NCBI GenBank assembly: GCA_025060595.1
Contig: JANXBX010000012.1
Span: 1-60,489 of the forward strand
Length of the DNA stretch: 60,489 nt
Source of the DNA: Synergistota bacterium
GTDB taxonomy: Bacteria > Synergistota > GBS-1
Direction: 5' to 3'
Of this stretch, positions 8,298-24,298 are shown piece by piece. Position 1 is the first letter of the stretch; the number at the start of each line of letters is the position of its first letter. The translations under genes and the position numbers were made by a program. The notes below the pieces were generated by a model. The model did no database searches. It was not told the DNA's origin and worked only from the letters and a program-made list of their open reading frames with translations.

Positions 8298-9605
8298 TTA
8301 AACCCTTCCTAGGGTTCTTACAAACCACATTATGGTGCTTGGGAATATCATGGTTATAATTATGGCTAAAACCATAAGTATTATAAAAGGGACCACGCTT
8401 TTATATATCTCCTCCATTGATATATGTTCGGCTACTCCTTTAAAGTAGTATAATCCTAGTCCCACTGGGGGTGTTAAGTAGGAAACTAGAAGAAGGGAGC
8501 AGAAAACGACCCCCCACCATATGGGATCGTACTTTAATGCTACTATAGCTGGAGTTAGTATAGGCGTCATGATCATCGTTATGGATACAGGGTCAATGAA
8601 CATGCCTAAAAAGAGGATCACCGCTGATGCGAAGACGATAACGGTTATCTCTGCTCCCGGAAGGGATGTCAAGAAGTTTACCATTAACCTTTTCCCTCCT
8701 ATTCCTGAGAAGACCGAGCTAAAGGAGGATCCTGCTGCCATTATCCAACAAGCCATAGATGTAACCTTTAAAGTTACGATTAGGGAGTCGGTTAATACCT
8801 TTGCTGAGAGCTTTTTCCTTATAGCTACGTAAAATAGGCTTAAGAATGCTCCAACGCCAGAGGCCTCGGTAGGTGTGGCCATGCCTGTGAAGATGGAACC
8901 TAAGACTCCTAAGATTATTATTACCGGACCTATGATGAATCTTAAAGATGCTATTTTTTCCCATAGGGGGATCTCCTCTTCTATTACAGGTACCTTATCC
9001 TTATTAAATAGGCTCCAAACTACTATATAGGCTATGAATACTAAGGCCATTACGAGGCCAACGCCTAATCCACCTGCGAAGAGTTTCCCCACTGATACTC
9101 CAGCGACTGAACCATAGACTATCATATTGAAGCTTGGTGGGACTATTTGAGGGAGGCAACCTGCTGCTAGGATTGAGCCTATAGATAGCTTCCTATCATA
9201 GCCGTGCTTTTCCATTACAGGTAGAATTATGAGCGCTAAGGCTGATACCGCTGCTGCTATAACGCCAGACATGGCTCCTATAATGTATCCGAAGATGACG
9301 GCTATGATGGCTAGCGATCCTCTTATCTTGCCGAAGATATCGTATAAGGTTGTGAAGAGCTCCTCTGATACACCGCTCTTTTCAAGAAGCGCAGACATAA
9401 ATACGAAGAGGGGTAAGGCTACTAAAGCCCAGTTGTTCATCAGCGTCCAAATCCCTTGAAATACGACATATAGTCCGCCCCATCCCCAGAAGGCTATCCC
9501 AAAGATTATGGATGTTAAAAAGAGCGCAAAGGCAACTGGCAGATTTAAAAGTATTATAGCAAACAGTGCTATAAACATTAAAAGTGGTGTAAAAGTTCCA
9601 CTCAT
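8298..9605 (-). CDS. TRAP transporter large membrane subunit DctM
   Basis: This 12-TM-type integral membrane protein is the ion-coupled permease of a TRAP transporter, with PVAFALFLTS near the N-terminus and PTEASGVGA and the late YLTPPVGLGLY signature. The start is the ATG at 9605, which follows GGAGGTTTCC and overlaps the dctQ stop as ATGA; an in-frame extension of 24 residues upstream is not needed. It is the last gene of a dctP-dctQ-dctM operon lying downstream of the uxaB-uxaA-eda operon, so a sugar-acid or keto-acid substrate is likely. Confidence 0.9.
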   Translation of the reverse strand: MSGTFTPLLMFIALFAIILLNLPVAFALFLTSIIFGIAFWGWGGLYVVFQGIWTLMNNWALVALPLFVFMSALLEKSGVSEELFTTLYDIFGKIRGSLAIIAVIFGYIIGAMSGVIAAAVSALALIILPVMEKHGYDRKLSIGSILAAGCLPQIVPPSFNMIVYGSVAGVSVGKLFAGGLGVGLVMALVFIAYIVVWSLFNKDKVPVIEEEIPLWEKIASLRFIIGPVIIILGVLGSIFTGMATPTEASGVGAFLSLFYVAIRKKLSAKVLTDSLIVTLKVTSMACWIMAAGSSFSSVFSGIGGKRLMVNFLTSLPGAEITVIVFASAVILFLGMFIDPVSITMIMTPILTPAIVALKYDPIWWGVVFCSLLLVSYLTPPVGLGLYYFKGVAEHISMEEIYKSVVPFIILMVLAIIITMIFPSTIMWFVRTLGRV

Positions 9606-10087
9606 TTTATGGAAACCTCCTTCATTAAGGATATAGCTTGAAGTAATATCAATATTATGCCTATAACTGGAATCCACTTAAACCACCATATGGGTGGAGC
9701 GAACACTACTCCTAAGCTTGAATCTACCTCTCTCTGAACGAATGACTGGTAAGCTAATGGTAGGCTGACATAGATTATTATAAGACAGCAAGCTATGATT
9801 AAGATGTAGTTAATGATGTCAAGGGCTTTTCTGGCTTTCTGAGATAGCTTTTTATATATTATATCTACTGACACATGCCCCCCCTCTAAAAGGGTATATC
9901 CTCCTCCTAAAACGAATAGGCTACCGTAAAGCCAGACTGATACAAATATAACCCTTGCATCTGCTCTCCCTACGAAGTATCTTACTAAAACGCCATAGAC
10001 CACTACGATGGTTAGTATCAAGCTTAAGTACATTAAGACCTTGCTTAATTTTGTGTTAAGTTTATTAATTATCTTCAACTTTATCAC
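9602..10087 (-). CDS. TRAP transporter small membrane subunit DctQ
   Basis: The 161-residue protein has four predicted TM helices (near residues 17-36, 52-70, 90-112, 132-152), the usual DctQ shape, and pairs with DctM. The first start is a GTG (10087), but it nearly touches the AGGAG site; a TTG three codons later (10078) is better spaced and may be the real start. Its stop overlaps the dctM start (ATGA), implying translational coupling. Confidence 0.85.
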   Translation of the reverse strand: MIKLKIINKLNTKLSKVLMYLSLILTIVVVYGVLVRYFVGRADARVIFVSVWLYGSLFVLGGGYTLLEGGHVSVDIIYKKLSQKARKALDIINYILIIACCLIIIYVSLPLAYQSFVQREVDSSLGVVFAPPIWWFKWIPVIGIILILLQAISLMKEVSIK

Positions 10088-10108
10088 GCTCCTTAATTTA
10101 AGGATATT

Positions 10109-10147
10109 AAAAAGCCACCCAGGAAGCTACTCGCTTCCATGGGTGGC
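10109..10147 (-). terminator. Intercistronic hairpin with U tract between dctP and dctQ
   Basis: On the minus strand GCCACCC-ATGGAAGC and its complement (10114-10147) form a strong hairpin followed by five T (10109-10113). Placed between the binding-protein gene and the membrane genes, it should stop most transcripts after dctP, giving excess binding protein over the permease. Confidence 0.8.
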
Positions 10148-10186
10148 AATATGCATGGCTTGCTATAAATTAAGTGCTCTATAAGG

Positions 10187-11254
10187 TTATTTAACCAGCT
10201 CGGAAAGAGCCTTACTCCACTTTTCGTATCCTAACTCCTTCCAAAGCTTTATAAGCCTTAGGCAGAACTCTTTAGCTTCTGGGGATTTTGCCGCATAGTT
10301 AGAAAGTAGCTTTGCGCTAACTTCTATTACCTTATCCTGGTCCTGAGCCGGAAGCTCGCTTATTTTTGCTCCTGCAGCAATCCATTTCTGTCTGTATTCT
10401 TTATTAAGTTTTGCTACAAATTGGCTTCCCCATGGGTAGGTCTCGTTACATGCAGCCTTTATAGCTTCCTGATAGTTTTTGGGAAGCTTCTCCCAAACTG
10501 CCGGATTGACTACCAGGAAAGCATGAACCGCCGCCTCGCTATGTAGGTTAACTCCCTTGGTGGGCTCTAAGACGTTCTTAGCTACCTCATGGAACCCAAG
10601 TCTGTAGTTGGCAGTAAAGTCGGTCCACTCAAGGCCATCTATCGTTCCAAGCTGAAGTGCCTGATAAAGCTCACCAGCAGGCATCATGACAGCCTGGGCA
10701 CCTAAAGCGGTGTAAAACTCAGCGGCCATTCCAGAGGCTCTGAAAATCTTCCCCTTTAGATCCTCGAGCTTAGCAATGGGCTTTCTGCATATGAGTATCT
10801 CAGGCTCACCGTAAATCATAGGAGCTATATACTGAACTCCAAATTTTCCAAAGGCCTTGATTATAATGTCTTCTGTAGCCTTAACTTGCTTGGCCTGCTC
10901 CTCAAAGTTAAATACAGGGCCAGGTCTTCCTCCCGCTAATGCCATCACGGCATCCTGTGCTGCTTTATAGTTAGTGTAGAATATCGCTGTTTCAACAACT
11001 CCCTTGGATGTGGCCTCAAGTATCTCCGTTACAGGGAATCCAAGTTCTCCTGCCTGAAAGGCCTCAATCTTGACCTTCCCACCCGTTTTTTCCTTAACTA
11101 GCTTTATGAAATAGTCTATTACTTCGAAAGCTGGGTCTCCCTTTACATAGAAGGTGGCCATCTTAAAATTAAATTCTTGGGCAAAGGCTGGAAGAGTAAG
11201 ACAAAACACTAAACTTACTACTATGAGCAACATGCTACCTCTCAGAAACCTCAT
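10187..11254 (-). CDS. TRAP transporter substrate-binding protein DctP
   Basis: This 355-residue periplasmic protein has a signal peptide (residues 1-25, cleavage after AFA) and the DctP-family core. The pattern GKIFRASGMAAEFYTALGA and LGTIDGLEWTDFTANYRLGF, with a tryptophan after the acidic residue, recalls the TakP subgroup that binds 2-oxo acids or related carboxylates. It captures substrate for DctQ-DctM. It follows the eda terminator and has its own likely promoter. The ligand remains unknown; sugar acids are plausible from the neighbourhood. Confidence 0.88.
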   Translation of the reverse strand: MRFLRGSMLLIVVSLVFCLTLPAFAQEFNFKMATFYVKGDPAFEVIDYFIKLVKEKTGGKVKIEAFQAGELGFPVTEILEATSKGVVETAIFYTNYKAAQDAVMALAGGRPGPVFNFEEQAKQVKATEDIIIKAFGKFGVQYIAPMIYGEPEILICRKPIAKLEDLKGKIFRASGMAAEFYTALGAQAVMMPAGELYQALQLGTIDGLEWTDFTANYRLGFHEVAKNVLEPTKGVNLHSEAAVHAFLVVNPAVWEKLPKNYQEAIKAACNETYPWGSQFVAKLNKEYRQKWIAAGAKISELPAQDQDKVIEVSAKLLSNYAAKSPEAKEFCLRLIKLWKELGYEKWSKALSELVK

Positions 11255-11402: not shown

Positions 11403-12008
11403 TTACTTTTTACACTGTCTTACTTTCTCCAGAAAGAGTTTGGCGTTTTCCCTTGGATTTCCTTTGGTTAGGTGTGTTCCAACTCCTATAGCGAAGGCAC
11501 CTGCGTTAAACCACTCTTCTACGTTTTCTAGGCTTACTCCGCCGGTTGGCATGGCTTTGAACTCTGGGAATGGCCCTTTCATGCTCTTTATAAATACCGG
11601 CTTAAGTACGTCTCCAGGGAATATCTTTACGACCTCACATCCCATATTTTTCGCTTTAACGTATTCCGTAGGAGTCATTATGCCGGGAAAGTATGGGACT
11701 CCTGCCTCCTTACACACCTCATTTATCTCCTCTGATAGATGAGGACTGACAATATATTTAGCTCCTGCTTCGATGGCTCTCTTACATTGCTCCGCTGTTA
11801 ATACTGTTCCTGCTCCTATAAGAGCATCCTTAAGCTCTTTAGATAGCGCTGATATGGCCTTTTCAGCGTCAGGCACGGTAAAGGTAACTTCGATTACTCT
11901 GATTCCTCCCTCATAAAGCTCTCTTGCGATTTGTAAGCATTTTTCCACCGACTCGGCTCTTAAGATTGCCACTATACCCTCTTCCCTTATCCTCTCGAGA
12001 GTCATCAT
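11403..12008 (-). CDS. eda: 2-dehydro-3-deoxy-phosphogluconate (KDPG/KHG) aldolase
   Basis: This class I aldolase cleaves KDPG to pyruvate and glyceraldehyde 3-phosphate, the last step of hexuronate and Entner-Doudoroff breakdown. The 201-residue protein has the Eda TIM barrel with E40 in IEVTFTVP and the Schiff-base lysine K128 in VVKIFPGDV. Its ATG overlaps the uxaA stop (ATGA). It completes the uxaB-uxaA-eda operon, but no KDG kinase of the usual PfkB type is seen in the window, so that step must be elsewhere or done by the FGGY kinase downstream. Confidence 0.92.
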   Translation of the reverse strand: MMTLERIREEGIVAILRAESVEKCLQIARELYEGGIRVIEVTFTVPDAEKAISALSKELKDALIGAGTVLTAEQCKRAIEAGAKYIVSPHLSEEINEVCKEAGVPYFPGIMTPTEYVKAKNMGCEVVKIFPGDVLKPVFIKSMKGPFPEFKAMPTGGVSLENVEEWFNAGAFAIGVGTHLTKGNPRENAKLFLEKVRQCKK

Positions 12009-13477
12009 AATATCACCCCGTCTTTAAAGATTGCTATTTCTTGAATACCTCTTTCCTCACCTTTGGTTTTCTTTCCGCTTGCTACGTTTATAATTAACTC
12101 TAGTAGTTCTTTTAATGCTTCTTCTACACTCTTTCCCTCGGCTATTTCGCCAGCGTTATAATCTATCCAGCTAGTCTTTCTCTTGTAAAGCTCGCTATTA
12201 GTAGATATCTTTATGGTTGGGACTACAGCCTCAAAAGGGGTACCCCTTCCTGTAGTAAAGAGTATCATCGTGGCTCCGCTTCCAGCCAAGGCTGTTGTGG
12301 AGACCAAATCGTTTCCCGGTCCGAATACTATATTTACTCCGCTTCTTTTTGCTCTCTCACCATACCTTAGAACATCGGTTACCTTATTACTGCCGCTTTT
12401 CTTAACAGCTCCTAAGGATTTTTCCTCTAGCGTCGTTATGCCACCCTTTATGTTGCCTGGAGAGGGATTTTCAGAGACCGGTTGATTGTATCTCGTGTAG
12501 TAGTTTCTGAACCAGGTTATAACTTCAACGAATTTGTCGAAGGTTTCCTTATCCTCAATTCTCGAAATTATATCTTCCTCTGCTCCAAATATCTCTGGGA
12601 TTTCACTCATTAAGACCGTTCCACCATAATAGGTTATATAGTCAGATACTTTACCTACAAGAGGATTTGCGGTTATACCTGAGAGAGAATCGCTTCCTCC
12701 ACATTTCACACCTATGGTGAGTGAGCCTATGGGGCATTGAACCCTCTCCGTACGCGCTCTTTCAGCTACTTCAAAGAGGGCTTTCGATAAGGCTTCGCTT
12801 TCATCGTTGACAGCCTGAAGCATAAGAAAAGCTACGTTTGGATGGTTCTTTAGTTCATCCCTTAAATAGGCTAGCTGTAGGTTTTCACATCCAAGCCCGA
12901 CGATGATTACTCCTCCTGCATTTGGGTTTTTGGCTAAACCTAAGAGGATGTTTTTTGTCATTTCCAGGTCTCCCCCAAGCTGAGAGCAACCGTAAGGGTG
13001 AGATAAGACCTTGATGTCGTCTATCCATTCGGGCTTCTTAATCGAGCATGCGAAGTCCTTTAAGACCCCATTTATACATCCCACTGTGGGTATTATCCAT
13101 ATTTCATTTCTTATTCCTACTTTTCCATCCTTTCTTTTAAACCCCCAAAAGCTCTTTTGAGGTAGATCTATCTTTATTTCCCTTAACTTTTTTTCCTGCC
13201 ACTTTGGCTCCCACTCAGGTTTAAGAAGGGTTTTTACATTATGCGTGTGAACCCATTCTCCAGCCCTAATGTCTTGAGTTGCTTCTCCTATAGTACTATC
13301 GTATTTTATTATCTTTTCTCCCATCTTTACATCTCTTAAAGAGAATTTGTGTCCCCTTGGAATATCGTTTAATAGGATGAGCTCCCCTTCCGAAAGCTTT
13401 AATATTTCCCCCTTGCTTATATCTTCTAAAGCTACCGCAACGTTATCGCTATCTCCAAGCTTTATATATCTTCTCAA
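12005..13477 (-). CDS. uxaA: Altronate dehydratase UxaA
   Basis: This enzyme dehydrates D-altronate to 2-keto-3-deoxygluconate. The 490-residue protein has an N-terminal SAF-type domain (about residues 1-95, ending AGEWVHTHNVKT) fused to the UxaA C-terminal catalytic domain, as in full-length bacterial enzymes. The conserved GIRNE, GCENLQ and GVKCGGSDSLSG stretches are present. Its start lies 29 bases inside the end of uxaB, and its stop overlaps eda, giving a tight three-gene operon. Confidence 0.92.
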   Translation of the reverse strand: MRRYIKLGDSDNVAVALEDISKGEILKLSEGELILLNDIPRGHKFSLRDVKMGEKIIKYDSTIGEATQDIRAGEWVHTHNVKTLLKPEWEPKWQEKKLREIKIDLPQKSFWGFKRKDGKVGIRNEIWIIPTVGCINGVLKDFACSIKKPEWIDDIKVLSHPYGCSQLGGDLEMTKNILLGLAKNPNAGGVIIVGLGCENLQLAYLRDELKNHPNVAFLMLQAVNDESEALSKALFEVAERARTERVQCPIGSLTIGVKCGGSDSLSGITANPLVGKVSDYITYYGGTVLMSEIPEIFGAEEDIISRIEDKETFDKFVEVITWFRNYYTRYNQPVSENPSPGNIKGGITTLEEKSLGAVKKSGSNKVTDVLRYGERAKRSGVNIVFGPGNDLVSTTALAGSGATMILFTTGRGTPFEAVVPTIKISTNSELYKRKTSWIDYNAGEIAEGKSVEEALKELLELIINVASGKKTKGEERGIQEIAIFKDGVIL

Positions 13478-14747
13478 GGGATGAGAGCACCTCCCTTTTA
13501 AGGTCTTCGTTAAGATTGGGGAAGAAGCTTTCTATTATGCTTCTTAAGTCCCTTCCTTTGAGCTCTTCAAAATCGGAAAGCTTAAAGGGCCCATTGGGTA
13601 AATCCTTTACTCCATCTTTGCATGTGTAAAGCTCAGCCATATAAGCTATTGATTCTATCAACTTGCTTGGAAGCTTCCCGAACTTTCTATAGTAATCCTC
13701 AAGGGTTGGTCTTAAACGGGTATTTACCTTGCTTATAGAGTTTAAGGCTATGGTTCTTAAGCTATGCTTTAGCGCCGGATTCTTGAATCTCTCTAAAACG
13801 TCATCAGCATATTTGTGAGTTTCCTCATTGTCCGCTAAGGCTGGAACTATTTCTTCGTGAATCAGCTCCTTAATCCATTTACCGAACTTCGGATGTTCAA
13901 CAAAGTCCCTAACGAATTCTATGCCGTTAAGTAGCCCTACGGGAACCATCGATGTATGAGAACCGTTTAGTATCCTTACCTTTCTTTCTCTATAAAACTT
14001 GAGATTGTCGGTTAAAATGACGTTAAGTCCTGCTTTATGGAAAGGTAGAATCTCAAATAGCGAGGGATCTCCTTGAATAACAAAGAGGTGGAAGATTTCT
14101 CCGCTTGTTAAGTTTAAATCTCTTTCCCCAATCTTTTTAAAAACCTCTTCAGCTACATCCTCCGGAAAGCCTGGTACTATTCTATCAACTAAAGTATTAT
14201 AAAATTTACATTCATCAAGATACTTAAAGAAATTCCTGGGGTATTTCCAATCTTCCGCGTATTTTATAACGCACTCCTTTAGCTTTTCTCCATTATTATC
14301 TATAAGCTCAAGGGGAAGTATGTAGAGGGGGGGGAGTCCCAACCTGAATCTCTCGTAAAGTATATGAGTTAGCATAGATGGATAGTTTTCAGGTCTTTCC
14401 ATCTTTTTATAAAATATGCCGGCCTCAGTCGTATTGGAGACCACTACTTTAAGCTCTGGTATCCTTCCTGCCTTAAGCAGTTTCTCATAGTTTTCGAAGG
14501 GATTAACACCATCCTTTATGACCTCTACCTTGTCTATAACTTCCTTGTATTCTCCATTAATGTATCCCCTTAAAAGTACATGGTATTTTCCGTTTGCTTG
14601 AAGTAAATCTTTTACTTTACCTTGGGGGATAGGTTGGACTAAAAATACCTCATTTTCTGCGCCCGTTATCTCATTTATCTTCTGAACCATCCAATCGAAG
14701 AAAGCTCTTAAGAAGTTTCCCTCGCCGAATTGAAGGATGGTTATCAT
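13449..14747 (-). CDS. uxaB: Tagaturonate reductase (altronate oxidoreductase)
   Basis: This NAD-dependent long-chain polyol dehydrogenase reduces D-tagaturonate to D-altronate. The 432-residue protein begins with the UxaB-like nucleotide-binding motif LQFGEGNFLRAF and carries the family signature RILNGSHTSMVPVGL with the downstream catalytic region. GGGAGGGCATAG precedes the ATG. As first gene of uxaB-uxaA-eda, it defines a galacturonate-type branch, although uronate isomerase UxaC is not in the window. A fructuronate reductase (UxuB) is the alternative, but the UxaA neighbour favours UxaB. Confidence 0.88.
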   Translation of the reverse strand: MITILQFGEGNFLRAFFDWMVQKINEITGAENEVFLVQPIPQGKVKDLLQANGKYHVLLRGYINGEYKEVIDKVEVIKDGVNPFENYEKLLKAGRIPELKVVVSNTTEAGIFYKKMERPENYPSMLTHILYERFRLGLPPLYILPLELIDNNGEKLKECVIKYAEDWKYPRNFFKYLDECKFYNTLVDRIVPGFPEDVAEEVFKKIGERDLNLTSGEIFHLFVIQGDPSLFEILPFHKAGLNVILTDNLKFYRERKVRILNGSHTSMVPVGLLNGIEFVRDFVEHPKFGKWIKELIHEEIVPALADNEETHKYADDVLERFKNPALKHSLRTIALNSISKVNTRLRPTLEDYYRKFGKLPSKLIESIAYMAELYTCKDGVKDLPNGPFKLSDFEELKGRDLRSIIESFFPNLNEDLKREVLSSLEKIYKAWR

Positions 14748-14910: not shown

Positions 14911-15666
14911 GTGGAGGTATGGAAGGTGTTTAATGAGATTCAGAAGTTTAGGACGTCTGTAGAAGTGATCAATCAGATAATATCCTCTATATCTAGGGGA
15001 AGGTTGCCGCCAGGGTCTCCTCTTCCTTCTGAAAGGGATCTTGCTAGGATGTTTAACGTTAGCAGAGTGGTAGTGCGTGAGGCCATCTCCGGATTAGCTT
15101 TGCTTGGTATAGTCCAGAAGAAATGGGGGAAGGGGAATTACATCTCGGATGACATCAATCTTTCGCTTATTCATAACTCTATTAAGCATCTTGTTGTTTT
15201 GAAGGAGCAGGAGATAATGGATGTAATTGAAGCGAGGATGGCAGTTGAGTGCGAGCTTGCGGCATTAGCTGCTAAAAGACGTACCGAAGAGGATCTTTTT
15301 AAGCTTAAAAGCTCCTTAGATAGCTATCTTAAGGGCACGAGGGGAACGTTGAAAAAGCTAGAGCTCGATTTGGCTTTTCATGCGACTATAGCTGAGGTGG
15401 GAAGGAGCAAGGTTCTTGAAGGCTTGCAAAGGGTTTTGAGCGAAAAGTGTTTCAGTGTGATGCAATTTGGAGCATGGCTGAGTGATATAGTTAAAAGCGC
15501 TGAGGGAGATCATATTCAAATTTATGAGGCTATAAAAGATGGAGATCCATCTAAAGCTCAAGAAACTATGAGAGTCCACTTGTCAAAGCTTATGGAGAGG
15601 GTGGCCTTTTGTTTCAAGAATATTAATAGTAAGGAAAAAAATGGTTTGGAAGTAAAGTTTAAGTAA
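14911..15666 (+). CDS. GntR-family (FCD/FadR subfamily) transcriptional regulator
   Basis: The N-terminal winged helix (about residues 15-85, with PLPSERDLARMFNVSRVVVREAIS, here split as a GntR signature) is followed by an all-helical FCD ligand-binding domain carrying likely metal ligands in LDLAFHATIAE, DHIQIYEAI and VHL. FCD regulators usually sense organic or sugar acids. It sits divergent from uxaB-uxaA-eda and just before the aldonate operon, so it probably controls both. A GTG at 14926 following GGAGGTATGGAAG is a better-spaced alternative start that removes five residues. Confidence 0.9.
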   Translation: MEVWKVFNEIQKFRTSVEVINQIISSISRGRLPPGSPLPSERDLARMFNVSRVVVREAISGLALLGIVQKKWGKGNYISDDINLSLIHNSIKHLVVLKEQEIMDVIEARMAVECELAALAAKRRTEEDLFKLKSSLDSYLKGTRGTLKKLELDLAFHATIAEVGRSKVLEGLQRVLSEKCFSVMQFGAWLSDIVKSAEGDHIQIYEAIKDGDPSKAQETMRVHLSKLMERVAFCFKNINSKEKNGLEVKFK

Positions 15667-15706
15667 AGATCCTCTCTATAATTTCCAACTATTTTGAATG
15701 TTGACT

Positions 15707-15729
15707 TTAAGTGCTTTTACATGTATGAT
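15707..15729 (+). promoter_or_regulatory. Promoter of the aldonate/LarA/TRAP operon
   Basis: TTGACT near 15701-15706 is followed after a 17-base spacer by TATGAT at 15724-15729, a near-consensus sigma70 promoter, about 57 bases before the dehydrogenase start. It lies 3' of the regulator gene, so the operon can be expressed independently of gntR. Confidence 0.75.
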
Positions 15730-15734
15730 AGAGA

Positions 15735-15745
15735 TGGTTAGACCA
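15735..15745 (+). promoter_or_regulatory. FadR-type GntR operator TGGT-N3-ACCA
   Basis: TGGTTAGACCA is a perfect match to the TGGTNNNACCA pattern bound by FadR-subfamily GntR regulators. It covers the expected transcription start just after the -10 box, so binding would repress the operon. The regulator encoded immediately upstream is the natural partner; this is inferred from the motif. Confidence 0.65.
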
Positions 15746-15785
15746 CTATACCAGAGATAGCTTTTTGGGGAGGGGGCGAACCTCG

Positions 15786-16736
15786 ATGAGGAGGGTTGTG
15801 GTTGCGGCACGAACCTTCGGCAGATATTCTCAAGAGCCTATTGAGTTTTTGAAGAGGCACGGCTTTGAGATTGTGAGATGTGAAGAAAAGGAATTACCCT
15901 CAGCATTAAAGGATGCTGATGCTCTTATAGTTGGGACCCCGAAGGTTACGAGAGAGATGCTTTCATCCTCCCGAGTTAGGATAATAGCCAAGCACGGGGT
16001 TGGTGTGGATAATATAGATCTAAAAGCTGCAACAGAGTTAGGTATTCCTGTGACCGTGACACAAGGGGCAAATTCCGAATCTGTTGCTGAGCTTACGATA
16101 GCTTTTATATTTGCCTTAGCTAGGGGATTGATTAAGTGCCATTTAAATCTGTTTCAGAAGAAAGAGTGGTCTGGGGTTGTTGGCGTTGAGGTAAGGGGTA
16201 AAACGTTAGGGCTTCTCGGTTTTGGTGCTATAGCTAAAGAGGTTAATAAGAGAGCTTTATGTCTTGGTATGAGAACGATAACGTATGATCCTTATATTTC
16301 TGAGGAAGAGGTTGCTAGGATGGGAGCTAAGATGGTTAGCTTTGAGGATCTCCTTAAAGAGTCTGATTTTCTCTCCCTTCATGTTCCCCTAACAGATGAA
16401 ACAAGAGGGATTATAGGGGAGAGGGAGATTAGATCTATGAAGAGGAGCGCTTTCTTGATAAACACTGCAAGAGGTGGAATTGTTGATGAAAATGCTTTAG
16501 CTAAGGCTCTTAAGGAGGGTTGGATTAGTGGTGCAGCTCTTGATGTATTCGAGGAGGAACCACCAAGCCCTGAATCTCCCCTCTTTAGTTGCGAGAACTT
16601 GATTACTACTCCTCATGTGGGGGCACACTCGATAGAGGCAGTTTATAGGATGAACATGATGTCTGCTCAGTCGGTGGTTGACTTTTTTAATGGTAGGCCA
16701 TTGCAGTATGTGGTGAATAAGGAGGTATTAAAATGA
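15786..16736 (+). CDS. D-isomer-specific 2-hydroxyacid dehydrogenase
   Basis: This NAD(P)-dependent enzyme interconverts 2-oxo acids and D-2-hydroxy acids. The sequence has the Rossmann motif LLGFGAIAKEV, the catalytic arginine in NTARGGIVDE, glutamate in DVFEEEPP and histidine in TPHVGAHS. Start set at the ATG (15786), which follows GGGGAGGGGG; an upstream in-frame start seven codons earlier overlaps that site. It overlaps the LarA homologue (ATGA). Annotation pipelines would call it phosphoglycerate dehydrogenase-like, but the context suggests a 2-ketoaldonate or hydroxypyruvate reductase. Confidence 0.85.
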   Translation: MRRVVVAARTFGRYSQEPIEFLKRHGFEIVRCEEKELPSALKDADALIVGTPKVTREMLSSSRVRIIAKHGVGVDNIDLKAATELGIPVTVTQGANSESVAELTIAFIFALARGLIKCHLNLFQKKEWSGVVGVEVRGKTLGLLGFGAIAKEVNKRALCLGMRTITYDPYISEEEVARMGAKMVSFEDLLKESDFLSLHVPLTDETRGIIGEREIRSMKRSAFLINTARGGIVDENALAKALKEGWISGAALDVFEEEPPSPESPLFSCENLITTPHVGAHSIEAVYRMNMMSAQSVVDFFNGRPLQYVVNKEVLK

Positions 16737-17974
16737 AAGTTAAGTACTATGATTTTGCTGAAGGATTTGTACCCGATGATAGGGTTAAGGCTGTCCTTGA
16801 GCCGAGCCATTTGCATGGTATGGAGCTTAAGGATTTTGAAAAAGAGTTGAATGTTCTTCTTGAGGAGCGCCTTATTCCCAAGCTTAATGGGGTTAAAAAG
16901 ATCCTTCTTCTTGTTGATGATATAACTAGGCAGACGCCGGTTTCTTGGATATTGCCTTCTTTTTTAAACTTGGTAAACCGCATAGGTATAAAAGATGAGA
17001 ATGTAACTATCCTTGTTGCTACCGGAACTCATCGTCACATGACTTTATCTGAGCAGGTTAAAAAGTATGGTGAGGAGGCTCTTAAAAGAGTAAGGGTGGT
17101 ATTTCATAACTATAAAACTGATGTGGTTCACATAGGTACAACTCCAAATGGAACACCCGTTGTCGTTAATAGGCTTGTTTTGGAAAACGATCTAATTATA
17201 GGTATAGGTATGGTTGTTCCTCATAGAGTTTCTGGCTTTAGCGGAGGGGGGAAGATCGTTCAGCCTGGGATATCCGGCGAGGAAACCACAGGTCAGACTC
17301 ACTGGCTAAGCGCTCAGTTTGAGGGTAAGGATATTCTTGGAAAGGTGTTTAATCCCGTTAGGGATGAGATAGAAGCTGTGGCTAAAGCTGCAAACCTTAG
17401 TTTCATAATAAATGTCATTCCTGACAAGAGCGGTAGGCCGATCAAGGTGTTTGTGGGGGACCCTATACCCACTTTTAAGGAAGCGGCTGAATTTGCTCGC
17501 GGAATTTACGGTGTGAAATCGCCAACATCGAAAATAGTTTTAACCGATTCTTACCCTGCTGATTTGGAGCTTTGGCAGGCGGCTAAAGGGATTTACTCTG
17601 GTGATCTTATTCTTGAAAAGGATGGGGTTATTATTCTTGTTACTCCGTGCCCTGAGGGAGTTGGCGTTGAATTTGGAGAGTTAATAGTTAAATACGGATA
17701 TAGGGGATATGAGGATGTGAAAGGGCTCGTTTCGTCAGGTGAACTTACTAACCTCATCGTTGCAGCTCACCTTGTACATGTGGGACGAGTTATAAGGGAT
17801 AAGGGTAAGGGAATTTTGGTCTCTCCTGGCATAGATTCTGAGACCGCTAAAAGGCTTGGCTTTATTCCCGCTTCAAACGTTGATGAAGCTCTAAAGATAG
17901 CGCAAAGCTTGGTTGGTCCTCAGGAGATTGTTGTTTGTAAGTTTGGTGGGGAGTTATTGCCCCTTGTAAATTAA
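16733..17974 (+). CDS. LarA-family nickel-pincer hydroxyacid racemase/epimerase homologue
   Basis: The 413-residue protein belongs to the LarA (lactate racemase) superfamily, which uses a covalently bound nickel-pincer nucleotide. All key residues are visible: DDITR around 62-66, H100 in TGTHRHM, H164, cofactor-linking K174 in GGGKIVQPG, and H190 in GQTHW. These have almost the same spacing as D72, R75, H108, H174, K184 and H200 of Lactobacillus plantarum LarA. LarA homologues include malate, hydroxyglutarate and D-gluconate 2-epimerases. With an aldonate-type kinase, dehydrogenases and TRAP in the operon, gluconate/mannonate epimerisation is the best guess. No larB, larC or larE lies in the window. 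Confidence 0.88.
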   Translation: MKVKYYDFAEGFVPDDRVKAVLEPSHLHGMELKDFEKELNVLLEERLIPKLNGVKKILLLVDDITRQTPVSWILPSFLNLVNRIGIKDENVTILVATGTHRHMTLSEQVKKYGEEALKRVRVVFHNYKTDVVHIGTTPNGTPVVVNRLVLENDLIIGIGMVVPHRVSGFSGGGKIVQPGISGEETTGQTHWLSAQFEGKDILGKVFNPVRDEIEAVAKAANLSFIINVIPDKSGRPIKVFVGDPIPTFKEAAEFARGIYGVKSPTSKIVLTDSYPADLELWQAAKGIYSGDLILEKDGVIILVTPCPEGVGVEFGELIVKYGYRGYEDVKGLVSSGELTNLIVAAHLVHVGRVIRDKGKGILVSPGIDSETAKRLGFIPASNVDEALKIAQSLVGPQEIVVCKFGGELLPLVN

Positions 17975-17998
17975 ATTCATAGGGAGGTGTGAGGTATT

Positions 17999-19012
17999 AT
18001 GAGAGGATTAGTAAGTAAGCTTCTTGCGGTATCATTGGTCATTCTACTTGCGGGATCTGCCTTTGCTGCTCCAAAGTTTACCCTGAAGTTCAACCACGTT
18101 CTAGCGCCTACCGAGCCTTATCATGAGGGATTCACGAACTGGGCTAAGGCGGTAGAGGAAAAGACGAAGGGCGATCTTAAGATTGAAGTTTACCACAGTG
18201 CTCAGCTTGGAGTTGAGGAGGATATCCTTGAGCAGATAAGGGCTGGTGCCAACATAGGTCAGAACACGGACTCAGCAAGAATGGGAATGTACGTTCCAGA
18301 TATAGCTGTTATGAATGCTCCATACTTCATTAATTATTTTGGCGCTAAGACTCCTGAGGAGGTAATGGATGTTTTAACCAAGATAAGGCAGGCTCCTACT
18401 ATGCAGGCTTGGCTTAAGGATCTTGAGGAGAAGTTTGGCTTCAAAGTCGTTTCCTTTAAGTGGGTTCAGGGTTATAGGCACTTTTTCACTAACAAGCCTA
18501 TAAGGAAGCCTGAGGACTTAAAAGGCTTAAGGATTAGGACTCCTGGGACTCCTATATGGCAGGAATCTGTTAGGGCTCTTGGCGCTCAGCCTGTAGCTAT
18601 TAAGTTTGGTGAGATTTACACTGCTATCCAAACCAAGGCTGTAGATGGAGCGGAGCTTGTTTACGCTAACATCGTTGGAGGCAAGCTTTACGAGGTTTTG
18701 AAGCATGCTTCTGAGACGGGTCATATTCTTTTAATTAACTTCGAGGTCGTTAGCTCCAAGTGGTTTAACACCCTTCCACCAGAATATCAGAAAGTGATGG
18801 TTGATGAGTGTGACAAGGCTGGAGTTGAGACATCTTACAAGATAATGAAGGAGCTTAACGAGAAGTTTAAGCAAGAGGTAATAAGCAAGGGTGTTCAGGT
18901 TATAACCGATCCGGATATACCGGCCTTTATGAAAGCTGGAGAAGAGGCTTACAAGGTTCTTAAGCTACTCGATGCAAGAGATAAGCTTTTGAAGGAAGTC
19001 AAGGGTAAATAA
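17999..19012 (+). CDS. TRAP transporter substrate-binding protein DctP (aldonate operon)
   Basis: This 337-residue periplasmic protein has a signal peptide (residues 1-23, cleavage after AFA) and the DctP fold, with the carboxylate-binding arginine in GLRIRTPGTPIWQ and the VDGAELVYANIVGGKLYEV hinge region. It belongs to the broad DctP/YiaO/SiaP group that captures C4-dicarboxylates or sugar acids. Its place after the LarA homologue and before SDR and kinase genes points to an aldonate. GGAGGTGTGAG lies before the ATG. Confidence 0.9.
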   Translation: MRGLVSKLLAVSLVILLAGSAFAAPKFTLKFNHVLAPTEPYHEGFTNWAKAVEEKTKGDLKIEVYHSAQLGVEEDILEQIRAGANIGQNTDSARMGMYVPDIAVMNAPYFINYFGAKTPEEVMDVLTKIRQAPTMQAWLKDLEEKFGFKVVSFKWVQGYRHFFTNKPIRKPEDLKGLRIRTPGTPIWQESVRALGAQPVAIKFGEIYTAIQTKAVDGAELVYANIVGGKLYEVLKHASETGHILLINFEVVSSKWFNTLPPEYQKVMVDECDKAGVETSYKIMKELNEKFKQEVISKGVQVITDPDIPAFMKAGEEAYKVLKLLDARDKLLKEVKGK

Positions 19013-19026
19013 AGGTTTGGTATTCA

Positions 19027-19068
19027 AAAGGGGGCCAACCTGGGGTTTGGATAGGTTGGTCCCCTTTT
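19027..19068 (+). terminator. Intercistronic hairpin with U tract between dctP and dctQ
   Basis: AAAAGGGGGCCAACCT (from 19027) pairs with AGGTTGGTCCCCTTTTT (to 19068), giving a strong stem with an 11-base loop followed by T residues. It lies at the same place as the hairpin in the other TRAP operon, so it should lower expression of the downstream membrane genes relative to the binding protein. Confidence 0.8.
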
Positions 19069-19095
19069 TAGCATCTACTTGTGAGGTGATCGTTT

Positions 19096-19584
19096 GTGTT
19101 GGAAAGGTTTGATAGAGCGCTTCTTAAATTTGAAAGGGTAACCACTAAGATTTTAATAATTCTAATGATAATTCTTATATTTGTCTCTGGAATAGCAAGG
19201 TTCTTGGGTAGGCCTATGAACTTGGCGGTTGATCTAAGCACTTTTGCTTTTGCCTGGGCATGCTTTTTCGCTGTTGACATAGCTTGGAGGGAGAACAAGC
19301 TTATGTGTGTTGATATCTTTTTAAAGCGGCTTTCGGAAAAGGACCAAAGGAAGATAAGGATCTTAAACTACCTGATAATTTGTGGCTTTTTGATCTATAT
19401 GGTGATATGGGGGTTTCACCTTACATACACGACAAGGTTTAGAACCTTTGCAGGTATACATGGCTTTAGCTACTCTTGGGTTAACGTTAGCGTTCCGATT
19501 GGTGCGGCGCTTACCTTGAGGACCACAATACTGAAGATTCTTCAGGAGCTTAAAGGAGGTAAACCGGAATGCTCATCGTTATAA
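19096..19584 (+). CDS. TRAP transporter small membrane subunit DctQ
   Basis: The 162-residue protein has four predicted TM helices and the family fold, with a charged RENKLMCVDIF loop before the third helix. The start is a GTG after GAGGTGATCGTTT. It overlaps dctM by 16 bases. It serves as the small partner of the permease in the aldonate operon. Confidence 0.87.
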   Translation: MLERFDRALLKFERVTTKILIILMIILIFVSGIARFLGRPMNLAVDLSTFAFAWACFFAVDIAWRENKLMCVDIFLKRLSEKDQRKIRILNYLIICGFLIYMVIWGFHLTYTTRFRTFAGIHGFSYSWVNVSVPIGAALTLRTTILKILQELKGGKPECSSL

Positions 19585-20852
19585 TAGCATTTATTGCCTT
19601 TTTGATTATGGGAATGCCCGTAGCTTTCGCTATAGGAATATCTGGGTTTTTGTGGTTCCTCCAACATCCTGAGCTTCCTATTACTATTCCTATACAAGTT
19701 AGCCTTTCGCAGACGCAAAACTTTACTCTTCTAGCTATTCCTCTTTTCATTTTAGCCGGTAATGTAATGAATTATGCAGGTGTAACAAGCAGGCTTATGA
19801 GCTTTGCTTCCTCTTTAACTGGCCACATGAGAGGAGGGTTAGCTCAGGTTTCAGCGGTTCTTTCAACCTTGATGGGAGGAGTTTCTGGCTCAAGCATTGC
19901 CGATGCGGCTATGGAAACGAGGATGTTAGGGCCGGAGATGCTTAAAAGGGGATATCCGAAGGGCTTTGCTGTGGCTGTCAACGTTTGGACGTCTCTGATT
20001 ACCCCTATTATTCCTCCGGGTATAGCTTTCATTATTTACGGAACCATAGGTCAAGTCTCGATCGGTAGGCTATTTGCAGCAGGTATCGTTCCTGGACTTC
20101 TCTTGATGGTTGCTTTCATGATCGCTATATGGATCTCTGCTATTCGTATGGGTTTAAAGCCGGAGAAGGAGAGACGTGCTCCTTTTGTTGAGGTGGCAAG
20201 AGCTTTTGGAAAGAGCTTCTGGGCGGTGCTCTTTCCGGTATTCCTTATCTTCAGCTTAAGGGCAGGAGTATTTATGCCATCTGAGGTCGGTTCCTTTGCA
20301 GTGATATACGGTTTGATTTTGGGGTTCCTATTTTATAGAGAGCTTGATCTAAGAACCTTCTTGACTCGGACGCTGGATGACTCTATTGGCGATGTGGGAA
20401 GTGTAATGTACATACTTGCAATGTCAGCCATATTTAGCTATGGCATGGTTTGGGAGAAGACTCCTGAAATTCTTGCTGATTTCTTGCTTGGTATAAGCGA
20501 TAATCCTATCGTTTTGATGTTTATGATAGTAGGTTTCCTTATATTCGCTGGCCTTTTTGTAGATGCAACAGCTTTGATACTTATGTTGACAGCGGTTTTT
20601 CTTCCTGTAGCCAAGAGAGTTGGCTTAGATCCGGTTCACTTTGGGCTTGTTTTTATAATATCTGCAGCTATGGGTAATCAAACTCCGCCTGTAGGGGCCT
20701 CTATGTATGCAGGATGTTCTATCCTTGGGGCTTCTATAGAGGAGTATACGATGGCTTCTTTCCCATTCTTTATAGCTGTTGTTGCTGTGATAATAGTTTT
20801 AATGTTTTTCCCTCAGCTTGTTCTTTTCTTACCCAATCTTCTTTTTGGATGA
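19569..20852 (+). CDS. TRAP transporter large membrane subunit DctM
   Basis: The 427-residue, 12-TM-type permease has GMPVAFAIGISG at its N-terminus, MGGVSGSSIADAA, the PPGIAFIIYG region and NQTPPVGASMY late in the protein, all hallmarks of the DctM family. It moves substrate with sodium or protons, working with the DctP and DctQ proteins just upstream. A GGAGG site lies inside dctQ before its ATG. Confidence 0.92.
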   Translation: MLIVIIAFIAFLIMGMPVAFAIGISGFLWFLQHPELPITIPIQVSLSQTQNFTLLAIPLFILAGNVMNYAGVTSRLMSFASSLTGHMRGGLAQVSAVLSTLMGGVSGSSIADAAMETRMLGPEMLKRGYPKGFAVAVNVWTSLITPIIPPGIAFIIYGTIGQVSIGRLFAAGIVPGLLLMVAFMIAIWISAIRMGLKPEKERRAPFVEVARAFGKSFWAVLFPVFLIFSLRAGVFMPSEVGSFAVIYGLILGFLFYRELDLRTFLTRTLDDSIGDVGSVMYILAMSAIFSYGMVWEKTPEILADFLLGISDNPIVLMFMIVGFLIFAGLFVDATALILMLTAVFLPVAKRVGLDPVHFGLVFIISAAMGNQTPPVGASMYAGCSILGASIEEYTMASFPFFIAVVAVIIVLMFFPQLVLFLPNLLFG

Positions 20853-20867
20853 GAGGAGGTTTTAAGC

Positions 20868-21623
20868 ATGAATTTTAAAGGTAAAGTAGTGTTAATAACT
20901 GGTGCAACATCTGGTATAGGGCGTAAGGCCGCCATTATGTTCGCAGAAAGAGGGGCAAAGGTGGCGGTAAACGGTACTTCCGAGGAAAGAGGTAAGGAAG
21001 TGGTTGAAGAGATAAAGAAGGTAGGAGGAGAGGCTATATTTATTCCTGGTGATGTATCCAAGGATGCCAAAAGGATAGTCGAAAAAACTATAGAGGCTTT
21101 CGGTAGAATTGATATCCTTGTTAACAATGCTGGGATAGTTTTATACGGAGATGCTGAGGAGGCTACGGAAGAACAGTTTGAAAAAACAATGGATGTGAAT
21201 GTGAAGGGGCCTTTTCTTCTTTCAAAATACGCTATCCCTTATATGAAGAGCCAAGGTGGAGGGGTTATAGTTAATGTTTCTTCTGAGGTTGGGCTTGTTG
21301 GCATCCCTAAGAGGTGCGTTTATAGCATTTCCAAGGCTGCCCTTTTGGGTTTGACTAGGTCTTTGGCGGTTGATTATGTTGGCTATGGGATAAGGGTTAA
21401 CGCAATTTGCCCTGGTACTACTCATTCTCGGGGTTTGGCAGAGAGAATTAAGGCTTCGCCTGATCCTGAAGGGATGGTTAATAGAATCGTTTCGAGGATA
21501 CCTATGAAGCGCCTTGGGAAGGAAGAGGAGATAGCTTTTGCAATTCTTTTTGCCGCTTGTGATGAGGCTGGCTTCATGACGGGTAGCATAATAAACATCG
21601 ATGGCGGCTCAACAGCGGTCTAG
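20868..21623 (+). CDS. Short-chain dehydrogenase/reductase (SDR), gluconate 5-dehydrogenase-like
   Basis: This classical 251-residue SDR has the cofactor motif TGATSGIG, NNAG, the catalytic serine in NVSSEVG and YSISK. The C-terminal INIDGGSTAV is typical of the family. In this operon it likely oxidises or reduces a sugar acid, for example a ketogluconate, but sequence alone does not fix the substrate. It starts 15 bases after dctM. Confidence 0.85.
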   Translation: MNFKGKVVLITGATSGIGRKAAIMFAERGAKVAVNGTSEERGKEVVEEIKKVGGEAIFIPGDVSKDAKRIVEKTIEAFGRIDILVNNAGIVLYGDAEEATEEQFEKTMDVNVKGPFLLSKYAIPYMKSQGGGVIVNVSSEVGLVGIPKRCVYSISKAALLGLTRSLAVDYVGYGIRVNAICPGTTHSRGLAERIKASPDPEGMVNRIVSRIPMKRLGKEEEIAFAILFAACDEAGFMTGSIINIDGGSTAV

Positions 21624-21645
21624 GAGCTTTGGAGGTGCTTAAAAT

Positions 21646-23088
21646 ATGGGGATCTGCGTCGGGCTTGATATAGGAACTACAGGGCTTAAGGTTGTAGCTT
21701 ATGATTCTTCAAAGAGCTCCATAGAGATGGACGAGGGCTTTCACTATGAGCCTAAGTCTCTTGGTCCTGGAAGGTTTGAGCAAGACCCTAAAGAGGTTGA
21801 AGATGCGGTATTTAATGCCTTAAGGAAGGTTAGTGAGAGATTTAAAGATATAGATGCTATAGTTTTAGATTCGGCCTTACATACTATTCTTTTCCTTGAT
21901 AGCGATCTTAAGCCCATTACTAATATCGTTCCCTGGCTTGATGAAAGGACCGTTCCTCAGGTAGAAAGAACACTAAAAGATGAAGCTTTAACTTCAGAGC
22001 TTCACCATAGGACGGGTTGTCCTCCAGCGACTGTTTATCCCTTTTACAAGCTTCTTTGGTTTTATGATAATGAGCCTGAGATCTTAAAGGTAGCATTAAA
22101 GATAGTATCTCAGAAGGATTATATAGTTTACAAGCTCACAGGTTATCTGCTAAGTGATATAAGCGTTGCCTCCGGAAGCGCCTGTTTGGATATAAGGAGG
22201 AAAGAATGGTGTTATGATGTTCTATGGGAGCTTGTAAAGGTTGAAAGTGATAAGTTTCCTGAGCTGTCTAATCCTTTAGAGGTCTTGGCCTTAAGTAAAG
22301 AGGCCTCTTTAAGGACCGGTTTGCCTGAAGGAACCCCAGTGATCCTGGGGTTTTCCGATGCGGCAGCTTCGAGCATAGGGGCTGGAGCAGGTATTGAAGA
22401 CTCTATTACCGTTTCCGTTGGTAGTAGCGCTGCTATTAGAGCTATAGTAGAGAATCCCCCTAGTGAGTATCCTGCTCCTGGTGTCTGGTGCTACCTCTTG
22501 GATGAAAAGCTTTATCTCTCTGGAGTAGCTATAAAGAATGGAGGCTATGTATTTGACTGGTATGTTAAGCTCTTCTCAAAGAGAAGTTACCCTGAGATAA
22601 TTAATATGGTTGAAAGAGATATAGAGGCTAATTTAGATAACCCTGTTTTATTTTACCCTTTCATTTTTGGGAAAAGGTTCCCCAAGTTTGATCCCGTTCC
22701 TCGGGCGAGATTTGATAACCTCACAAGCTCAACCACAGAGGCTCAAGTTGCAAGGGCAGTTCTAGAGGGCATAGCGTTCAACCTTAAGCGCGTGTTCGAT
22801 ACTGTTAAAAAGATACCCAGGACCCTAAGGAAGGTTGTTGCTACAGGGGGCTTAACTCAAGCCGATATCTGGATGAGGATGCTTTCATCCATATTCGAGC
22901 ATGAGATAGTGGTTCAAAGCCAGCGTCAAGGTGCTGCCTTGGGAGCTATACTTTACTTTTTAAGCGATGGAAACCTTAATTCGATTAACCTAGAGGCGTT
23001 TTCTCACGAGCTTAAAAGATATTCTCCAAGTGAACCGCTTTTAAGTTACTATAAAAAGGCTTACGAAAGGTGGCTTAATAGGCTCTAA
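21646..23088 (+). CDS. FGGY-family carbohydrate kinase, gluconokinase-like
   Basis: The 480-residue protein has the FGGY kinase layout: an N-terminal DIGTTGLKVVAYD phosphate-binding loop and a C-terminal half with the GFSDAAASSIGAG and ATGGLTQADIWMRM ATP-site motifs. The segment SALHTILFLD resembles FGGY gluconokinases, which phosphorylate D-gluconate at C6. This would fit as the exit of an epimerase/dehydrogenase pathway toward 6-phosphogluconate and KDPG. It closes the operon that starts at 15786. Confidence 0.82.
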   Translation: MGICVGLDIGTTGLKVVAYDSSKSSIEMDEGFHYEPKSLGPGRFEQDPKEVEDAVFNALRKVSERFKDIDAIVLDSALHTILFLDSDLKPITNIVPWLDERTVPQVERTLKDEALTSELHHRTGCPPATVYPFYKLLWFYDNEPEILKVALKIVSQKDYIVYKLTGYLLSDISVASGSACLDIRRKEWCYDVLWELVKVESDKFPELSNPLEVLALSKEASLRTGLPEGTPVILGFSDAAASSIGAGAGIEDSITVSVGSSAAIRAIVENPPSEYPAPGVWCYLLDEKLYLSGVAIKNGGYVFDWYVKLFSKRSYPEIINMVERDIEANLDNPVLFYPFIFGKRFPKFDPVPRARFDNLTSSTTEAQVARAVLEGIAFNLKRVFDTVKKIPRTLRKVVATGGLTQADIWMRMLSSIFEHEIVVQSQRQGAALGAILYFLSDGNLNSINLEAFSHELKRYSPSEPLLSYYKKAYERWLNRL

Positions 23089-23153: not shown

Positions 23154-23783
23154 GTGGGTGATCTCGCTTTCCTCAAGAGAAAGGCTTTTACTCTGGTTGA
23201 GCTTTTAGTGGTAATAGCGATAGTGGGTGCCCTTTTAGCTATGCTTTATCCGAGCTTTCATAGGGCTATTATTAAAAGTAAAGTATCTCGAGTTTTAGCC
23301 GATATATATGCTGTTAAGTCTGCGGCCTTAATTTATTACACTGATACTGGACTTTTCCCTCCTGACGATGATTGTTACACGGTTCATAATGTTCCCTACC
23401 ATGGTCTTGACTTTTTGGAAAATAGGGCTAACGTCTCTGGATGGAGGGGCCCTTATCTTGAAAAATGGCCTAAAAACCCGTTTTGCGTTAGGGATCCGGT
23501 CAATAGGGAGTCTGGCTATCAATGGGAAGGGACGTGGGAATCACCAGGATATCCTTATCCTACAGGTGAGCATGGTTATAACTTTGGTAGAGGTTATGAG
23601 CCTTGCATAGAGATAGGGATCCTTGATCTTGGACTTGAGGATAGAAGGTGGGTTCATCTTCTTATAGATAAAACCATAGACGATGGGAATCCTAACACGG
23701 GAAATTATAGGGTTAGAAATCCTGGAAATAACCCGGCAAGCAGTTGGCTGTGGGGATATTATAGAGTCACGATAGGAAAATAA
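23154..23783 (+). CDS. Type II secretion/type IV pilus pseudopilin
   Basis: The 209-residue protein has the class III signal of pilins: basic FLKRKA followed by [20 protein letters not shown] with Glu at mature position 5. The residue before the cleavage site is Ala rather than the usual Gly. The C-terminal part, rich in glycine, proline and tryptophan (GWRGPYLEKWPKNPF), resembles GspG-like major pseudopilins. The GTG start sits inside the likely ribosome site AGGTGGGTGATC, and no other usable codon follows, so the exact start is uncertain. No assembly ATPase or secretin gene is nearby. Confidence 0.78.
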   Translation: MGDLAFLKRKAFTLVELLVVIAIVGALLAMLYPSFHRAIIKSKVSRVLADIYAVKSAALIYYTDTGLFPPDDDCYTVHNVPYHGLDFLENRANVSGWRGPYLEKWPKNPFCVRDPVNRESGYQWEGTWESPGYPYPTGEHGYNFGRGYEPCIEIGILDLGLEDRRWVHLLIDKTIDDGNPNTGNYRVRNPGNNPASSWLWGYYRVTIGK

Positions 23784-23809
23784 GTTTTTATACTAAGGGG
23801 GTGATATAG

Positions 23810-24298
23810 TTGAAGAAAGGGAAGAAAAAGGGTTTTACGCTTGTTGAGCTTCTGGTTGTTATAGCCATAATAGGTATACTTGTAGCGATAATTACTCCTA
23901 ATGCTTTTAATGCTATCGAGAGGGCTAAAATAGCGAGATGTGAGGCTGATTTACACGCTATTAAGAGCGGAGCTTTGGCTTATTACATCGACGTGGGTGA
24001 TTGGCCAAACCAGCTCCAAGACCTTATTACCTCTTCTGTAACTGGATGGGATGGCCCTTATCTTGAGAAGCTACCTACCAAGTCTCCTTGGGGTAACTAT
24101 AGTTTGACTAAAACGAAGCCGACTGGTCTATATACTGGTGTGAACTATTCCTTATTTGTTAGCGTTGCAACTGTTCCCATCGAGGTGGCTAAGAAGATAG
24201 ATGTTGACCTTGACGGGACTGAGAGTGCCACAAGCGGAGCCGTTCAATATGCTACTGGAACTACCACTACGCTCTATTACGGCATAGGCCAGCAATAG
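23810..24298 (+). CDS. GspG-like pseudopilin
   Basis: The 162-residue protein starts at a TTG after GGGGGTGATATAG. A canonical prepilin site [24 protein letters not shown] is followed by a long hydrophobic helix. The body carries [20 protein letters not shown] and [19 protein letters not shown], the pattern of GspG major pseudopilins, and aligns in layout with the preceding gene. The pair may be substrates of a type II or type IV system encoded elsewhere. Confidence 0.85.

Follow-up and report, generated by a model that had tools for sequence, protein, structure and literature searches.

What does a homolog of the nickel-dependent lactate racemase LarA do when it is encoded among genes for sugar-acid metabolism? 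The question is raised by a 60,489-nucleotide stretch of a Synergistota genome (contig JANXBX010000012.1; hereafter, the window), which at positions 15786 to 23088 encodes a D-2-hydroxyacid dehydrogenase (DHDH), the LarA homolog, a tripartite ATP-independent periplasmic (TRAP) importer (DctP, DctQ, and DctM), a short-chain dehydrogenase (SDR), and an FGGY carbohydrate kinase, beside uxaB-uxaA-eda. A sequence-only reading had listed these genes and proposed that an imported mannonate-type acid is epimerized to gluconate and then phosphorylated; profile searches bear out its gene list and coordinates. We propose, with a probability of about one-half, that DHDH and LarA form a module acting at C2 that drains an aldonate as its mannonate/altronate-type epimer, with the importer, SDR, and kinase as accessory functions. 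The proposal builds on what can be read from the DNA: the genes, the residues of LarA, the presence of maturation and trunk pathway genes, and the repeated occurrence of the DHDH-LarA pair.

The window protein is predicted to belong to the LarA superfamily at scores far above chance (Lar_N, 150.9 bits against a cut-off of 23.3, E = 3.6e-44; LarA_C, 39.2 bits against 25). All residues that bind the nickel-pincer nucleotide (NPN) cofactor or take part in catalysis are kept: D63, R66, H100, H164, K174, H190, and K285, which align with D72, R75, H108, H174, K184, H200, and K298 of LarA. The alignment confirms the five residues named by the sequence-only reading (R66, H100, H164, K174, and H190) and shows that D63 and K285 are likewise retained. 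An AlphaFold model of the protein has a pLDDT of 94.7, and its strong Foldseek matches are all LarA-type, namely, lactate racemases, Mar2, an Isosphaera enzyme, GntE2, and single-histidine LarA-like proteins.

That reading had been staked on the presence of larB, larC, and larE, for which we searched the genome (1.86 Mb, 99% complete; the window is its contig 12). All three are encoded elsewhere, so their absence is ruled out as an objection: larB (300 bits; cut-off, 175) and larC (402 bits; cut-off, 22) are adjacent on contig 3, and larE lies on contig 10 (TIGR00268, 235 bits; cut-off, 150). The LarE sequence is fused behind a Ham1/RdgB (noncanonical purine nucleoside triphosphate pyrophosphatase) domain in a single 446-amino-acid open reading frame (L043:7204-8541, minus strand). 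The genome encodes four more LarA homologs, whose pocket residues resemble those of malate or lactate racemases and not those of GntE. One of these, on contig 2 (L039:7561-19896, minus strand), carries GEHK in helix 14, resembles malate racemases, and is clustered with a split UxaA, an Ldh2-type dehydrogenase, a TRAP importer, an IlvD-like dehydratase, and an AOR-like protein; this cluster is kept in the related genome GBS-1.

To assess the likely substrate, we compared the positions described as selectivity determining in earlier work (PMC7583248, PMC11770544, PMC11851776). In the window protein, R165-V166 follow the second catalytic histidine, W281 lies in helix 11, and A345-H346 lie in helix 14. 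The corresponding residues are E-S, W, and A-H in GntE2 and E-V, W, and A-H in LarAH18; those of lactate and malate racemases differ. Because W281 and A345-H346 match both enzymes and only R165 differs in charge, the pocket is predicted to resemble that of gluconate epimerases apart from a single reversal of charge, and R165 is invariant in 30 of 30 relatives. For helix 14, the register relative to lactate racemase is one residue off between our alignment and the published one, while the AAH motif aligns without gaps to GntE2 and LarAH18. An aldonate-type substrate is supported by this match to gluconate 2-epimerases and by relatives that adjoin galactonate dehydratase, 2-keto-3-deoxygluconate (KDG) kinase, and Eda.

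A GntE-like pocket does not make the protein a GntE. Against the NCBIfam equivalog models it reaches at best about half of any cut-off: 226 versus 460, 244 versus 500, and 204 versus 462 bits for lactate and malate racemase models, and 127 versus 500 bits for NF052594 (LarAH18). In a mixture-model tree, lactate/malate racemases (LAR/MAR) and GntE proteins form two groups, both with 100/100 support; the window clade falls between the two, past the LAR/MAR branch toward GntE but outside GntE's own group. A first tree (LG+G4) had nested GntE in the window clade, weakly supported (27, 75); under the mixture model, a single-clade grouping of the window sequences was not rejected (p-AU = 0.21). Membership in GntE (groups 18 to 20) was rejected on the R-V that replaces E-V/S after the catalytic histidine and on the NF052594 score. 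The window LarA is thus predicted to be a member of a separate, uncharacterized clade, although it probably works like GntE, and mechanism and substrate class may be alike. Eleven Acidobacteriota members of this clade (L062, L063, L064, L068, L070, L072, L074, L075, L076, L080, and L081) carry Thr or Ser in place of the lysine that tethers the NPN (K174 here, K184 of LarA), a residue elsewhere called universally conserved; these proteins retain the remaining cofactor and catalytic residues.

We next asked which genes accompany this clade. A genome scan yielded 31 named relatives, from Synergistota, Bacillota, Spirochaetota, and Acidobacteriota, making 32 loci with the window, some of them related to each other; a DHDH was counted if it lay within 8 kb of LarA. 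It did so at 11 of the 32 loci, in Synergistota, Bacillota, and Spirochaetota, often touching LarA, and the association spans two LarA branches as well as these three phyla. Also found near LarA were TRAP large permeases (11 loci), Eda-type aldolases (8), KdgK-type kinases (6), and FGGY kinases (5). The FGGY kinase occurs together with the DHDH-LarA pair in four genomes (that of the window, L057, L059, and L084). A true galactonate dehydratase (686 bits against 311) is encoded at two LarA loci, and in a Halanaerobiales metagenome-assembled genome (MAG) the gene order is TRAP-LarA-galactonate dehydratase-DHDH-KdgK-Eda. The Acidobacteriota loci carry a KduI/IolB protein and a major facilitator superfamily (MFS) carrier in place of DHDH. 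Relatives named as Synergistota, namely, bacterium GBS-1, an Acetomicrobium MAG, and Synergistaceae MAGs, place the window genome in this phylum.

Two loci indicate which of these partners are constant. In GBS-1, the closest relative, whose LarA is 75% identical, eda-uxaA-uxaB and GntR-DHDH-LarA are present, with the pilin genes immediately behind LarA; that locus lacks both TRAP importers, the SDR, and the kinase. In the Acetomicrobium MAG UBA5826 (LarA, 66% identical), the order is ILVD/EDD dehydratase-FGGY-DHDH-LarA-tripartite tricarboxylate transporter (TTT), and the kinase beside this pair is the single other match to the window FGGY at E ≤ 1e-90 in 188 Synergistota genomes. Because both loci retain DHDH-LarA while other genes differ, the pair is the core, with a varying importer and SDR and with the kinase as a recurrent but not constant partner. 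Base composition was rejected as a sign that TRAP-SDR-FGGY is foreign: neither GC content nor GC content at third codon positions (GC3) differs, so gain here and loss in GBS-1 are indistinguishable.

Where could an aldonate go in this organism? UxaC, UxuB, UxuA, and KdgK are encoded elsewhere in the genome, with another TRAP importer, and together with the window's uxaB-uxaA-eda they complete the hexuronate trunk. D-Mannonate and D-altronate share their configuration at C2, which is opposite to that of D-gluconate and D-allonate. For 6-phosphogluconate, in contrast, 6-phosphogluconate dehydrogenase (6PGD) has no match in the genome (in a 99% complete assembly, a missed gene is possible but unlikely), and the three ILVD/EDD proteins score 272 to 313 bits against the 708-bit cut-off for 6-phosphogluconate dehydratase (Edd). 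One of the three is IlvD, one is the IlvD-like protein beside another LarA, and one falls below all cut-offs. The last is encoded on contig 2 (L106:4573-12000, minus strand) with a second SDR-FGGY pair (402 bits with the gluconokinase model), a TTT, and a dihydrodipicolinate synthase (DHDPS)-type aldolase, a cluster that may represent a phospho-aldonate route involving an atypical Edd. Unless that protein is indeed such an Edd, the product of a gluconokinase would have no recognized exit. Net flow toward the mannonate-type epimer is likelier than flow toward gluconate because UxuA, UxuB, UxaC, and KdgK give a direct exit; we hold this 2S-ward direction, opposite to that of the sequence-only reading, with moderate confidence.

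In the mechanism we favor, LarA would be matured by LarB, LarC, and LarE and would shuttle a hydride between C2 of the substrate and the nickel cofactor, so that 2R and 2S hexonate epimers interconvert. 2-Ketogluconate reductases occur among D-2-hydroxyacid dehydrogenases, and the DHDH, for which we propose a role as a 2-ketoaldonate/aldonate oxidoreductase, would act on the same carbon and exchange one epimer with the 2-keto acid. Whichever form is imported, the 2S (mannonate/altronate-type) epimer would then be its way out: UxuA or UxaA would yield KDG, which KdgK and Eda would process further. The TRAP importer, SDR, and FGGY kinase would be accessory entry functions of this genome, the nearest relative doing without them. 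Substrate, direction of flow, and division of labor are the parts of this scheme that we infer. Several points weigh against it. R165 takes the place of the Glu of GntE, which may point to a substrate with a negatively charged distal group or to a different sugar acid. UxuA and KdgK are encoded on another contig, and the repeated pairing of FGGY with DHDH-LarA indicates that phosphorylation can matter. Aldonate activity within the clade is a prediction, and genomic context has misled for other LarA homologs (PMC7583248).

The alternative that survives best, perhaps half as probable as our scheme, is that the substrate is a different sugar acid (galactonate/talonate, an aldarate, or a uronate-derived acid) whose distal group is bound by the invariant R165 and whose breakdown shares only Eda with the uxa genes. 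The Bacillota relatives beside galactonate dehydratase, KdgK, and Eda and the Acidobacteriota relatives beside KduI/IolB and an MFS carrier would fit such a substrate, as would another LarA of the window genome that adjoins a DgoK-like protein (so named from its sequence); however, the window locus has no galactonate dehydratase, and the relatives linked to that enzyme are just 46 to 48% identical to the window LarA.

The route from a mannonate-type acid through gluconate to 6-phosphogluconate is less probable still, and we consider it unlikely. What stands of that reading is an NPN epimerase with its maturation genes, an aldonate-type context, and a gluconate-epimerase-like pocket; its end does not, for want of 6PGD and a recognized Edd. 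The recurrence of FGGY kinases beside the pair is in its favor, and the best solved relative of the window kinase is the gluconate kinase 3gbt (229 bits). However, the kinase, which had been called gluconokinase-like, misses both the gluconokinase (TIGR01314, 230 versus 648.6 bits) and the xylulokinase (250 versus 380 bits) cut-offs, GBS-1 lacks kinase and importer alike, and mannonate is already consumed by UxuA. Nor is the route little described, as had been supposed: the analogous path from mannonate through gluconate and GntK has been proposed in published work for gntE-gntK of Thermotoga maritima (PMC7583248, PMC3750489). A racemase of a small 2-hydroxyacid (lactate, glycerate, or malate) with the DHDH oxidizing the D form is very improbable, and a simple lactate or malate racemase is rejected. 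The malate and lactate racemase models do give the top NCBIfam scores (244 and 226 bits), and the DHDH resembles glyoxylate reductase and phosphoglycerate dehydrogenase; however, both scores reach half of the respective cut-offs, neither the F-F-W of lactate racemases nor the Lys of malate racemases is present in the pocket, and a 100/100 branch divides the LAR/MAR group from the window clade.

GntE2 of T. maritima (LarAH20; PDB 4NAR) is a D-gluconate 2-epimerase of the UxaR regulon gnd-uxaRED-gntEK. It shares with the window protein the LarA fold, the NPN and catalytic residues, the Trp of helix 11, the AAH of helix 14, and a hexuronate context with an FGGY kinase, but identity is 24 to 25%, and the window differs in R165-V166 for E-S, in its DHDH partner, in the lack of gnd, and in its separate tree branch. 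LarAH18 proteins of other Synergistota (NF052594, putative hexonate epimerases) share the W and AAH motifs, a DHDH neighbor, and the sugar-acid dehydratase UxuA next to it; they differ in the E-V of the loop, in the model score, and in forming a separate 100/100 group. In another Synergistota family, a GntP permease-DHDH-LarAH18-UxuA-UxuB operon (L101:4722-11215, minus strand) looks like gluconate uptake followed by conversion to mannonate and KDG, without a gluconokinase. Lactate racemase LarA and the malate racemases Mar1/Mar2 (groups 1, 5, and 6) share the fold, the cofactor residues, and the highest raw profile scores but differ in pocket residues and tree position.

The importer offers a further comparison. 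The window DctP matches PDB 2hpg at 486 bits over 317 residues, the next solved TRAP protein scoring 191 bits. We take 2hpg to be T. maritima TM0322, which lies near uctR (TM0326). UctR regulates a hypothetical sugar regulon that includes the UctMPQ transporter (PMC3750489). If TM0322 is UctP, as we infer, the window operon is a possible clue to this orphan Thermotoga system.

We found no description of the DHDH-LarA pair or of this pocket type in the literature searched, which is weak evidence of novelty as the group-by-group gene contexts in the supplementary tables of the LarA papers lay outside that search. A bolder suggestion, offered tentatively, is that the H-R-V/LWQAAKG/AAH clade has a new NPN epimerase specificity (e.g., galactonate/talonate or allonate/altronate), that with DHDH it forms a portable C2 module placed before different sugar-acid dehydratases in Synergistota, Bacillota, and Spirochaetota, and that UctMPQ takes up acids of this kind. 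Functions in the LarA superfamily are for the most part merely predicted or lacking. Because this clade has a consistent, distinct pocket signature in four phyla and a repeated gene partner, knowing the substrates of one holoenzyme could assign many sequences. Such knowledge would reveal how nickel chemistry lets anaerobes use a sugar acid in either C2 configuration as well as in its keto form, and it may indicate what class of substrate is carried by an orphan Thermotoga transporter of solved structure.

Table 1. Features of the operon and its surroundings (window coordinates)
Feature	Position	Strand	Remarks
Second TRAP importer (DctP, DctQ, DctM)	8298-11254	-	Behind eda; missing from GBS-1
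Eda-type 2-keto-3-deoxy-6-phosphogluconate aldolase	11403-12008	-	TIGR01182, 209 bits (cut-off, 156)
UxaA-type altronate dehydratase (family UxaA/GarD)	12005-13477	-	PF20629, PF04295, PF08666
UxaB tagaturonate reductase, divergent operon	13449-14747	-	NF002969, 417 bits (cut-off, 359)
GntR/FadR-family regulator	14911-15666	+	PF00392, PF07729; kept in GBS-1
Candidate promoter	15701-15729	+	In front of DHDH
Candidate operator palindrome TGGTTAGACCA	15735-15745	+	Just after the promoter-like site of DHDH
DHDH, NAD-type	15786-16736	+	PF02826, 211 bits; PF00389, 99 bits; first operon gene
LarA homolog	16733-17974	+	Lar_N, 151 bits; LarA_C, 39 bits; proposed NPN-dependent aldonate C2 epimerase
DctP, TRAP solute-binding protein	17999-19012	+	PF03480, 271 bits; close homolog of PDB 2hpg
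DctQ, TRAP small permease	19096-19584	+	PF04290
DctM, TRAP large permease	19569-20852	+	PF06808; TIGR00786, 453 bits (cut-off, 268)
SDR	20868-21623	+	PF13561, 217 bits; YxxxK motif
FGGY carbohydrate kinase	21646-23088	+	Falls between gluconokinase and xylulokinase models

The genes from DHDH to FGGY likely form one transcription unit because they lie on the same strand (Table 1) with overlaps of 4 to 16 bp or gaps of 15 to 83 bp; LarA starts 4 bp inside the end of DHDH, and DctP begins 24 bp after LarA. The DHDH reading frame opens at a TTG at position 15765, and the ATG at 15786 is the best start and agrees with orthologs; its translation carries the catalytic motifs NTARGG, DVFEEEP, and TPHVGAH. 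Genes uxaB-uxaA-eda run divergently from the upstream GntR gene. The candidate operator palindrome is conserved (TGGTTANACCA in the window; TGGTTATACCA in GBS-1) in a gap that has otherwise diverged. An operator shared by both divergent promoters was rejected, since only the palindrome on the DHDH side is common to both genomes; the TGGTATACCA consensus has 27 matches in the window against 18 expected, none of them within the promoter gaps. Two pseudopilin-like proteins are encoded after the operon at 23154-24298; in GBS-1 they lie directly behind LarA.

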